Origin: Thermoproteota archaeon
GTDB taxonomy: Archaea; Thermoproteota; Thermoprotei_A; Sulfolobales; NBVN01
NCBI GenBank assembly: GCA_030550455.1
Contig: JAUQPH010000003.1
Span: 9,134 to 73,133, forward strand
Reading direction: 5' to 3'
Length of the DNA: 64,000 nucleotides
Position numbers and translations under genes: made by a program. Below the pieces are notes generated by a model that ran no database searches, was not told where the DNA came from, and worked only from the letters and a program-made list of their open reading frames with translations. Below are positions 1 through 63,222 of the stretch, piece after piece (positions within the stretch are counted from its first letter, which is position 1; every line of letters begins with the position of its first letter).

Positions 1-174
1 ACGAGCGTAGAGGATAACGGTCCTAGGTTTAACAATACCCATAAGCTTCTCAACGTCTTCCTCTCTGAACCTCCACTTACCACTCTCGAGAACAACTGGT
101 TTAATCCAACCTCTCCTAACGTACTCTCTCAAAGTAGTGTAACTGATACCGAGCTTCTCACAAACCTCCTTTGA
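1..174 (-). pseudogene. IS607-family serine resolvase (TnpA) N-terminal region, cut by window edge; N-terminus appears disrupted
   Basis: Reverse complement reads SKEVCEKLGISYTTLREYVRRGWIKPVVLESGKWRFREEDVEKLMGIVKPRTVILYAR, a MerR-like HTH leading into the resolvase VILYAR motif. An in-frame TGA (175-177) lies immediately upstream with no ATG/GTG/TTG before the HTH. Confidence 0.7.
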
Positions 175-248
175 TCAAAGTAACAGTAAATAAAATGATA
201 CCAACCCTTATAAACCTATATGAAACCCGAAACAGTTGCGCGAGGCAT
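175..248 (-). mobile_element. Left terminus of the IS607-type element
   Basis: Reverse complement GCCTCGCGCAACTGTTTCGGGTTTCATATAGG...GGTTGGTAT matches the start of the elements at 9391-9674 and 62946-63224 (GCCTTGTGAAACTGTTTCGTTTTTCATAT...GGTTGGTAT). Confidence 0.65.
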
Positions 249-8944: not shown

Positions 8945-9388
8945 TTTCTTATAGCTACTTTACCTTAAAGCTTTTTAGTAATTAGACTTCCATCCACTAA
9001 AAAGAGGTTAATGCCTTAGTAGTGATACCTCGTATATCGAGTACGTTTTTCCATAGAGTCTCATCTTTCTCTTCTGTTCGTAGTCGGGGGTCAACCGCTT
9101 CTTGAAGCACACAACAACCTATATCCGTGGGACTTTGCGAGTTCCCTAGTCTTCTTAGTGTAAAACCCGGTCTCCGACTGACTTGGTTAGATAAGAAGGT
9201 ACGTAAGTAAAGGTTTAAAAATCCATAGAACATAAGGTTGTGGAACCCTCCAGACACCCTCTAAATGAGGGAGAATGAAGGATGGGAACTAGCGGGGTCA
9301 CATCATTACACTCAGCCTGCTTATAACGAGCACAACTCGTTGTTAAGGATTAAAGTAGTGCTCAATATGCTCGTCTACGCTAGATGTT

Positions 9389-9674
9389 TTAGGGGTTCAG
9401 CTCTGATGCAGGTTTATATCGGTTGATTTCATCGCCTCATCTCGTTCCCCCGCATTCCGCTCGGGTTTTCATCGGGCTTGGGGGCGTTCAGGGCGACCCC
9501 GGACACCCCACATCTTGTGTACCTCGGGGAGAGCCACCATCTACACTATCAAGCGGCTCTCGATCCCTCATCGAGATGTATCTACGTATATCGCTATATA
9601 AGGTGTTTATAAACGTTTCTATCAATACCAACCGATACGAACAGATGTGAAAAACGAAACAGCTTCACAAGGCT
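9389..9674 (-). mobile_element. Short (~285 bp) IS607/TnpB-derived element retaining both ends and an omegaRNA-like 3' region (copy A)
   Basis: Collinear in reverse complement with 62946-63224; contains CCCGATGAAAACCCGAGCGGAATGCGGGGG and a conserved GAGAGCC/GGCTCTC stem. Confidence 0.7.
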
Positions 9675-9768: not shown

Positions 9769-11676
9769 TTACTCTGGAAGTAGTTTGGCTTCAGATAGCT
9801 TGTCCGCCAACCACTTCAGGTCTAGCTCCTCCAGCTTCGCTCTTGTCGGTCTACCCCTCATCCAACCTCTCAAGCTGTAGTACTCTGGAAGCATCTCACT
9901 CAACCTAACTACATGCCCTTTAGCCGGCCCCTCAGGCATAGGCTCCTCTAGTAGCCTCTTGGGTAGTGTATCGTACTGTTCTCCGTCTTCAAAAGACAGC
10001 ACGTTGAAGGCTCTCTCCGCGTTGTATATTCTCTCACCTATTCTCTCGAACTCCTCCTTGGTTATGTCCCACCCTGTTACCGCCGATAATTGCTCGGCCA
10101 TGACGTCCGACCAATAGGCGAACGTAACGAACTTGCAGACAATTAAGCTATCTATAGTTGCGAATACGTCCTGGAAGTGCTTAACCCACCCTGCCTTACC
10201 TTTAGTCTCGAACCTATCGAGTAACTGTGGAACTCCTAAGATCTCAGGAGAGATCATGTAGGCCCTGAGGTGACAGCCACCCCTGTTACTCGTAGCGTAC
10301 GCTAGCCCGTGGCCTTGCGCACCTCTCGGATCATACGCTGGTAGCTCCTGGCCTCTAACGACCATAGCTAACTCGGGTGCTCCGTACTTCTGGGCTAGCC
10401 TGAGAGCCCCCTCGGCTATGTCGTCTCCAAAGCCGCTACGGTAAGCGGTTCTCCACGTTAGCTCGATTAAGGCCTCTCCGCTACCCCATGTTGCTCTTAG
10501 ACCGCGTAGCTTCTCTGGAGGAATCTTCCCTTTTTCAACAAGCTCCATGAACGTCCCTATTACGTGACCCATAGATATAGTGTCTAGTCCTAGCTCATTG
10601 CACAGATAGTTTGCCTTAGATATAGCTGCTAGATCGTCTGTACCGGTTTGAGCACCGAGAGCCCAAACCGTCTCGTACTCCGGTCCTCCCCCCTCTCCTG
10701 TGAATGGTGGCTTAGTTATCTTAGTGTATCTAGCGCACGCAATCGGACAACCCCAGCAAACCTCTTCCCTCTGCTTCTCCCAGTCCATTATTTCTCTAGC
10801 AATAGTTTCACCACTAGTCTTATCTGCCGTCGGGAACACACCGGTCTGGAAGTTCCTAGTTGGGTAGATCCCGTGAGCGTTGATTATGTTGACTAGAACA
10901 GCCGTACCGTACTTCGGTAAAGCCTCACTAGTAATCGCCGACCTTTTTATGAGGTCCATAGACTTTACGACAACTTCTCTAAACTTAGCCTCATTAGCTA
11001 CAGGGGGCTTCATATGTCCTCTTACTGCTATAGCCTTAAGCTTCTTGCTACCCCATACGGCGCCATGTCCTCCTCGACCGGCGGCCCTACTCTTGTCGTT
11101 GATTATACAGGCTATCCTAACAAGTCTCTCGCCAGCAGGTCCGATGCAGGCCACCTTGATTCTCGCAGCCTCGTCTTTACCTACTACAGGAGCTAGTTCT
11201 TCCTGTATGATGTCGGTGGTGTCGTGAGTATCTCTACCCCAAAGGTGCTTAGCGTCCCTAAGCTCGGCTTTTCCGTCATGGATCCAGAGGTACACAGGCC
11301 TCTCAGACGCACCCTCAATTATTATTGCGTCGTAGCCGGCAAACTTTAGCTCAGGACCGAACTTCCCACCACTCTGGGAATCGTGTAGAGTGTTGTTAAG
11401 TGGAGACTTCGTTACGGAGCACCATCTACCAGACGAAGGTATCCCCACTATACCCGTGAGAGGTCCGGTAGCTACGATGGCCTTGTTTGCTGGACTAAGT
11501 GGGTCGACCTTAGGATCAACCTCCTTGAGTATGTAGTAAGCCCCTAGACCTCTACCGCCTATCCACTTCCTCAGGATGTCTTCGGGAGGGAGTGGCTCGT
11601 CGATAACTCTCTGGTTTGTCAAGTCTACTCTGAGAACTTTACCCATATAACCTCCGAGTGGCAAAGATTCCACCAT
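9769..11676 (-). CDS. aor: Tungsten-containing aldehyde:ferredoxin oxidoreductase (AOR family)
   Basis: GGYMGKVLRVDLTNQ, WIGGRGLGAYYIL, 4Fe-4S motif CWGCPIAC, later Cys in LIVCKFVTFAYW. Confidence 0.93.
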   Translation of the reverse strand: MVESLPLGGYMGKVLRVDLTNQRVIDEPLPPEDILRKWIGGRGLGAYYILKEVDPKVDPLSPANKAIVATGPLTGIVGIPSSGRWCSVTKSPLNNTLHDSQSGGKFGPELKFAGYDAIIIEGASERPVYLWIHDGKAELRDAKHLWGRDTHDTTDIIQEELAPVVGKDEAARIKVACIGPAGERLVRIACIINDKSRAAGRGGHGAVWGSKKLKAIAVRGHMKPPVANEAKFREVVVKSMDLIKRSAITSEALPKYGTAVLVNIINAHGIYPTRNFQTGVFPTADKTSGETIAREIMDWEKQREEVCWGCPIACARYTKITKPPFTGEGGGPEYETVWALGAQTGTDDLAAISKANYLCNELGLDTISMGHVIGTFMELVEKGKIPPEKLRGLRATWGSGEALIELTWRTAYRSGFGDDIAEGALRLAQKYGAPELAMVVRGQELPAYDPRGAQGHGLAYATSNRGGCHLRAYMISPEILGVPQLLDRFETKGKAGWVKHFQDVFATIDSLIVCKFVTFAYWSDVMAEQLSAVTGWDITKEEFERIGERIYNAERAFNVLSFEDGEQYDTLPKRLLEEPMPEGPAKGHVVRLSEMLPEYYSLRGWMRGRPTRAKLEELDLKWLADKLSEAKLLPE

Positions 11677-13787: not shown

Positions 13788-14213
13788 ATACATCCCTTTA
13801 CCTTATATGAGAAACCAACCCGAGAGAACTCCTGAAGTACCTCAAGCAACTGTTTCGTGTTTCGTATTGGCTTGTGTCTCTTGATCGATGCGCGAAGGCT
13901 ACTATGTGGGGAGGTTGGAGCCCTTTGATGAGGTGCGAGCTCTCCCTGAAGGCGAACCGAGATGTGGATTGCTTGGAGCTGCTTTAAACACCCTAAAGCC
14001 TGACGGATCTCGGAGCAAAATGCTGAGGAAAACATATTATACATAAGAGAAGCTAGCTCAACTCATGTAGACTAAAACGAGAGCTGAGACTTCAACTTCT
14101 TGTCTCTCTAGTGTATTCTGTTTGGTAAGAACTAGCTAGTTAGGTCTCGTAAGTTGTGTAGCTAAAAGTAGAAAGAATATAACGCAGTTGGCGCATCGTT
14201 CTCAGGGGGTAGT

Positions 14214-62945: not shown

Positions 62946-63222
62946 AGCCTTGTGAAACTGTTTCGTTTTTCATATTTGTTTGTATTGGTTGGTATTGATA
63001 GAAACTTTATAAACACCTTGATATACGTAGAGGTACTTCGATGAGGGATCGAGAGCCACTCGATGCTGCATATGGCGGCTCTCCCCGAGACATCTAAGAT
63101 GTGGGGTGCTAGGGGTCACCCTGAACGCCCCCAAGCCCGATGAAAACCCGAGCGGAATGCGGGGGAAAGAGGTGAGGCAATGAAATCAACCAATATAAAC
63201 CTACATCAGAGCTGAACCCCTA
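62946..63222 (+). mobile_element. Short (~280 bp) IS607/TnpB-derived element retaining both ends and an omegaRNA-like 3' region (copy B)
   Basis: Collinear with copy A; same terminus as the IS607 left end at 175-248; keeps GAGAGCC (63051-63057)/GGCTCTC (63077-63083) stem. Confidence 0.7.

Follow-up and report, generated by a model that had tools for sequence, protein, structure and literature searches.

A protein-free miniature element of the IS607 lineage that probably retains an omegaRNA scaffold in a Thermoproteota archaeon

The 64,000-nucleotide stretch of DNA analysed here (the window), from a thermophilic archaeon, contains, near its start and on the minus strand, a short repeat (copy A) that is, virtually beyond doubt, a protein-free miniature transposon (MITE). 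About 30 near-full copies of ~283 bp each, and several decayed ones, are found in the same genome. The family descends from a TnpB-only element with IS607-type ends, and the part of it that corresponds to the tnpB 3' end very probably remains an omegaRNA scaffold, judging from its pattern of base-pair changes. Taken as a whole, the explanation that we consider probable is that of an IS607-lineage MITE mobilised in trans and supplying omegaRNA. That MITE RNA functionally guides TnpB in trans is a narrower claim, possible and on balance doubtful. Coordinates of the features are collected in Table 1.

Table 1. Features of copy A and of related elements in the window
Feature	Position	Strand	Basis
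Copy A, non-autonomous IS607-lineage element (MITE)	9391..9672	-	31-copy alignment; ends CCTCGTG...GAACCCC
AG before LE, probably host target, (R)WGCC, TAM-like	9673..9674	-	graded base preference (31 sites); nested insertion L002
Left end (LE), common to TnpB-only parents and intact IS607	9624..9672	-	profile matches L038/L039/L041/L042, L043, L110
Piece from tnpB upstream/5' coding sequence	9522..9623	-	profile ~47-153 matches L038 1327-1435 and equivalents
Candidate archaeal TATA box TTTATAAA, in the tnpB promoter/5'-derived piece	9606..9613	-	position shared by most younger copies
Hairpin GAGAGCC/GGCTCTC, relic of tnpB 5' coding sequence	9529..9561	-	98.3% paired, nearly invariant, 1 both-sided change
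OmegaRNA-like scaffold (tnpB 3' end and RE)	9391..9514	-	20 pairs with a pseudoknot; covariation exceeds shuffled and slid controls
Closing helix GATGT/GCATC, 9509-9513 with 9404-9408	9404..9513	-	mostly one-sided changes
Stem-loop H1, 9503-9508 with 9489-9494	9489..9508	-	GC<->CG and UG/UA/GC exchanges
Stem H2, 9479-9482 with 9446-9449	9446..9482	-	CG<->UA compensatory changes
Pseudoknot, H1 loop GGGGU 9495-9499 with terminal ACCCC 9391-9395	9391..9499	-	94% of cells paired
Predicted guide TAAAACATCTAGCGTAGACG, host flank	9371..9390	-	flank begins directly after conserved ACCCC
Copy B, same family	62946..63222	+	86.3% identity to copy A over its length; profile match
Third family copy, decayed, strongly diverged	13840..14087	+	LE and RE profile matches
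Decayed IS607 element, LE and TnpA 5' part	1..246	-	LE at 246-197, E 3.6e-9; NF033518 match

Results

A multi-copy family without proteins

The window's own genome (G000) is a MAG of 1.65 Mb on 17 contigs, 87.8% complete. A search of it with the copy A stretch returned 41 matches, far above chance, most of them 270-290 bp long and 73-92% identical to copy A. The initial annotation had described a minus-strand repeat of ~285 bp, strongly similar to copy B and without a full TnpA or TnpB, and both observations hold: the two copies share 86% identity, and the 283 bp of copy A contain no ORF, no TnpA and no TnpB (the length is 282 bp when counted with the CC of both junctions). When 31 near-full copies were aligned, the element boundaries were sharp and the flanks unrelated, with a left end reading ...(A/T)GCCTCGTGAAACTGTTT and a right end (RE) reading ...CATCAGAGCTGAACCCC. 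Being short, multi-copy and proteinless, and having its ends in common with a larger element, the family belongs with the MITEs and PATEs; it is not a classical MITE, in that its ends are not inverted repeats and the flanks of the 31 copies show no target duplication. An Rfam search of the window matched no family. Across the joined flanks the longest ORF was 116 codons and most sites had no long continuous ORF, so the insertions look largely intergenic. Five contigs of G000 (C3, C7, C9, C10 and C14) terminate no more than ~60-170 bp from a copy of the family; the repeats are therefore a probable cause of assembly breaks, and more copies may exist than were counted. The 635-aa gene that neighbours copy A (9769-11676, minus strand), which we take to be a tungsten-type aldehyde ferredoxin oxidoreductase, keeps its order in genomes G003 and G004, both without the MITE.

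Derivation from a TnpB-only element

The full-length parents are TnpB-only elements of ~1.5 kb, at least three of them intact in G000 (L038, L039 and L041) and a fourth frameshifted (L042), and the last ~130 bp of the MITE match the tnpB 3' end of all four. A profile of the left part of the MITE matches each parent twice, with positions 1-51 falling on the parents' left end, which precedes tnpB by ~200-250 bp, and positions 47-152 spanning the promoter of tnpB and its initial codons. It follows that two internal stretches of the parent are missing from the MITE, one that holds a divergent 47-aa ORF and one that makes up most of tnpB. In the L020-type second junction, CCCCGAGGTACTCAAG, the tnpB start ...CCCCGAGG is joined to the tnpB end ...AGGTACTCAAG. 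The 47-aa ORF (MARVEMVRCSVIKYRRGDHVLYPLGRDKEKIKHLHGKEVYVLIIAEE) is present in all full-length elements, between LE and tnpB (about 1180-1325 in L038, with equivalents in L039, L041, L042 and L046), and the protein of the parents has no Pfam match. What the MITE has kept appears to include the likely tnpB promoter: a TATA-like box, (C/T)TTATAAA, is kept at the promoter place in most younger copies, and such motifs occur at 0.14 per kb in the window. A full TnpB element 73% identical (L096, JAGTQB010000012.1) comes from a MAG that bears the label Bathyarchaeota, pointing to either horizontal transfer or mis-binning.

The more distant ancestry is indicated by an intact IS607 element (L110) in G027, from the same archaeal family, which encodes a 204-aa TnpA and a 435-aa TnpB. 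The family LE stands directly before its tnpA (LE E 4e-7), and its RE ends ...ATGAAACCCAAACCCC, with the terminus ACCCC. This common LE and RE terminus support an IS607 lineage with a TnpB-only immediate parent; of the term 'IS607-derived', used in the initial annotation, the lineage can be kept and direct derivation from a TnpA-bearing element has to be given up. Since neither copy A nor the full-length parents encode TnpA, they are not autonomous IS607 elements. In G000, within the limits of an 87.8% complete MAG, we found no intact TnpA with the family LE and no PF01797 match, that is, no Y1 transposase of the IS200/IS605 kind; the one intact serine TnpA (contig C3) lies in an element without a family LE match. 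Degraded IS607 elements are also present. The window start falls inside one of them (L043, G000:C11:6500-10500), consisting of an LE, a TnpA N-terminal part with a nonsense codon (TGA where the L110 codon is CGA), a 100-N scaffold gap and an open TnpB frame. Another IS607 TnpA fragment with a stop (L130, G000:C5:110589-110786) adjoins the MITE copy L047.

An RNA-type structure in the RE

A helix scan of the REs, followed by counting against controls, led to a structure of 20 pairs, composed of a GATGT/ACATC closing helix, a GGGGTG/CGCCCT stem, a CCCC/GGGG stem and a GGGGT-ACCCC pseudoknot. Over 51 REs from G000, G001 and named relatives, 91.4% of the cells are paired, both-sided changes occur in 28 cells vs 10.8 in shuffles (0/500), and pairing falls to 32-62% when the partner is slid. 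The MITE rows alone give 90.9% paired cells and 21 both-sided changes vs 8.7 in shuffles (0/500). Because these shuffles do not preserve relatedness and the structure was selected on the same data, most weight falls on the slid controls and on exact GC-CG exchanges at 22/31. All 20 pairs are intact in copy A. RNAalifold gave a poor consensus for the RE, and the MFE of single sequences did not lie below that of shuffles (z -0.76, -0.48). Covariation of the RE fold, also within the MITEs taken alone, supports the omegaRNA idea of the initial annotation, which had named structural covariation as its check; the idea survives for the ~124 nt of RE with their pseudoknot, the module having been misplaced onto a different stem.

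That stem, GAGAGCC at 9529-9535 with GGCTCTC at 9555-9561, is intact, and its loop varies among copies. In the parent the same place is ...GGAGAGC...GGGCTCTCCCCGAG and reads GGAGAGCTCGTCGAAGCTCTCAGGATGAGGGCTCTCCCCGAGG; it derives from tnpB codons ~5-20, upstream of the RE and outside the 3' omegaRNA region. The hairpin is 98.3% paired, but it shows one both-sided change, which is weak covariation support, and it is absent from several MITE types of G001 that keep the RE, so that its being the omegaRNA module of an IS607-derived element seems extremely unlikely. A peptide proposed as the TnpB tail, MVALPEVHKMWGVRGRPERPQAR, was likewise rejected, as it lies in another frame than tnpB; the true tnpB frame in copy A gives RCGVSGVALNAPKPDENPSGMRGNEMRR followed by a stop and matches ...RCGVLGVTLNAPKPDENPSGMRGNE... 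of intact TnpB.

The RE has the layout of an OMEGA RNA, a structured RNA at the tnpB 3' end and RE whose pseudoknot adjoins the guide. Positions -5..-1 before the guide pair with -109..-105, and in the ISDra2 complex, with a mature scaffold of 116 nt, -5..-3 pair with -103..-105 (PMC10097598). The two systems thus share a scaffold of ~116-124 nt at the tnpB 3' end and RE, a guide in the flank and a pseudoknot of -5..-1 with about -105, a likeness of layout; they differ in that the scaffold described here is also carried by elements without tnpB.

The chief rival to guiding in trans is that the RE has been kept only as a DNA site for the transposase, the RNA fold being inherited from tnpB elements and idle, and we regard this as having close to an even chance. 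Ends-only elements have precedents in PATE and SMN1, TnpA may need the RE in cis, and young copies conserve the LE, a part without any role in the RNA, to about the same degree as the RE. Mutation density in the RE is only slightly below that of the middle part of the MITE, and paired positions have no clear advantage in conservation. Against an idle RE, compensatory changes are also found among the non-coding MITE rows (some may predate the deletion), the TATA-like box has been retained in most younger copies, and the part of the tail found in every MITE type has just the length of the scaffold. The last point extends to G001, another species of the genus, whose own MITEs have several different left parts (L081-L095), all of which meet the tail no more than about 10 nt 5' of AAGATG, at the 5' border of the scaffold. 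Some of these types are plainly related by descent, and in L088 the junction lies at a TACTCA microhomology; the recurrence of this junction is therefore suggestive only, and a common breakpoint could stem from microhomology or RE swapping. In L094 (G001:C55, about 890-1022) the 5' part of the RE is inverted before the remaining RE, a complex rearrangement.

Insertion sites, guide and TnpB partners

In the flank before the LE bases CC, G is found at 29 of the 31 sites, A or T at 30 and A or G at 25, the preference fading with distance, while the right flanks of the 31 copies show no motif; the common insertion-site motif is (R)WGCC. One copy, L002, is nested in the RE of an older, reversed family copy. 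When its flanks are joined as GGGTTTAG-CC-CTAATG, they match GGGTTCAGCTCTGATG in a gap-free alignment through the junction, and do so only when AG is assigned to the host. This empty site, the one base-exact case, fits an exchange between identical dinucleotides, CC on one strand and GG on the other, without target duplication and with AG host-derived; the joined flanks of the 31 copies contain no other clean empty site. The exchange dinucleotide of IS607 is GG (PMC4058570, PMC6188088). An exchange over CC with AG on the host side would make (R)WGCC a TAM-like motif adjoining the guide, and it is a candidate for the TAM of the family.

The MITE is absent from the syntenic locus of G003 and G004, which shows a lineage-specific insertion of copy A; the intergenic DNA there has diverged too far to be aligned base by base. 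The guide position given in the initial annotation is right for an RE ending ACCCC at 9391. An empty site matching that guide, which had been expected in related genomes, was not found with base-pair precision either at these syntenic loci or by a guide search in 7 genomes, where no other site had <=2 mismatches; a single 3-mismatch match in G003 is at chance level and lacks WGCC.

A candidate TnpB partner for the scaffold, which the initial annotation had required, is present in the genome: L038, L039 and L041 encode intact TnpB ORFs of 412-451 aa and have the same RE. The family TnpBs have a TNB domain and a zinc-binding C-terminal domain, conserve the catalytic residues D186 and E280, and have Cas12f/TnpB as their best solved relatives. 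These residues also bear on another possibility, that the RE RNA is real and regulatory, MITE transcripts titrating or repressing TnpB or TnpA, for example, with no guided cuts. The same RE covariation would be expected of such an RNA; retention of the D and E residues by the TnpBs, together with a pseudoknot and guide-adjacent layout as in cutting omegaRNAs, makes it improbable.

Discussion

Under the explanation that we favour, the ancestor was a 1.5-kb TnpB-only element composed of LE, a small divergent ORF, tnpB and RE, from which two internal deletions produced the copy A type. Still present in it are the LE, a short 5' piece of tnpB together with its promoter, and ~124-134 bp at the 3' side, which encode the omegaRNA scaffold as far as the end of the RE. 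We infer that an IS607-type serine transposase acting in trans then spread it to about 30 sites, by exchange over the CC/GG dinucleotide without target duplication. Transcription from the element promoter into the flank would yield an omegaRNA with a private guide for each copy, TnpB from full-length relatives would load it, and cutting of insertion-free alleles beside (R)WGCC would favour retention of the copy. Because the ends, the likely promoter and the guide-RNA part have all been kept, the nuclease of full-length relatives might in principle protect each copy. A further extension, that the ~20 younger copies are 'omegaRNA-only' selfish units of promoter, scaffold and private guide which borrow both TnpA and TnpB, one or a few TnpB genes thereby serving many guides at once, we consider rather doubtful.

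Ends-only derivatives of TnpB-bearing IS elements are already known. In the Halanaerobium PATE (IS200/IS605), 28 nt of the LE are combined with the final 58 nt of tnpB and a complete RE (PMC7290912); this element resembles the present MITE in being ends-only and keeping the last part of tnpB with the whole RE, whereas the MITE has IS607-type ends, ~30 copies vs one, an extra tnpB promoter/5' piece and covariation in the RE. SMN1 of Sulfolobus islandicus, mobilised by ISC1733 (PMC3718332), is likewise an archaeal MITE of ~320 bp moved in trans, but another transposase is implicated, and no omegaRNA analysis of SMN1 was found in the part of its description covered here. With IS607 itself (L110, IS607/ISC1904) the family shares an LE over ~50 bp, an RE ending ACCCC and CC/GG exchange without target duplication; unlike it, the MITE has neither tnpA nor tnpB, and the TnpBs of the parent and of L110 share only 29% identity. 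The parents resemble the archaeal TnpB-only (IS1341-type) elements with 3'-overlapping RNAs, in that they have tnpB without tnpA and an RNA overlapping the tnpB 3' end, and differ from them by their IS607-type ends and the 47-aa divergent ORF between LE and tnpB. In the literature covered, outside which many subscription papers lie, we found no published description of proteinless elements supplying omegaRNA to TnpB in trans.

The family comprises ~60 natural scaffold variants with compensatory changes in two species, which makes it useful for defining an archaeal omegaRNA, and it provides a candidate TAM open to direct testing. If the MITE RNAs work, TnpB would be a shared good, and proteinless elements would parasitise both halves of the transposon life cycle. 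This would help to explain the persistence of TnpB-only elements and of their protein-free derivatives, and would amount to a natural multi-guide TnpB system.
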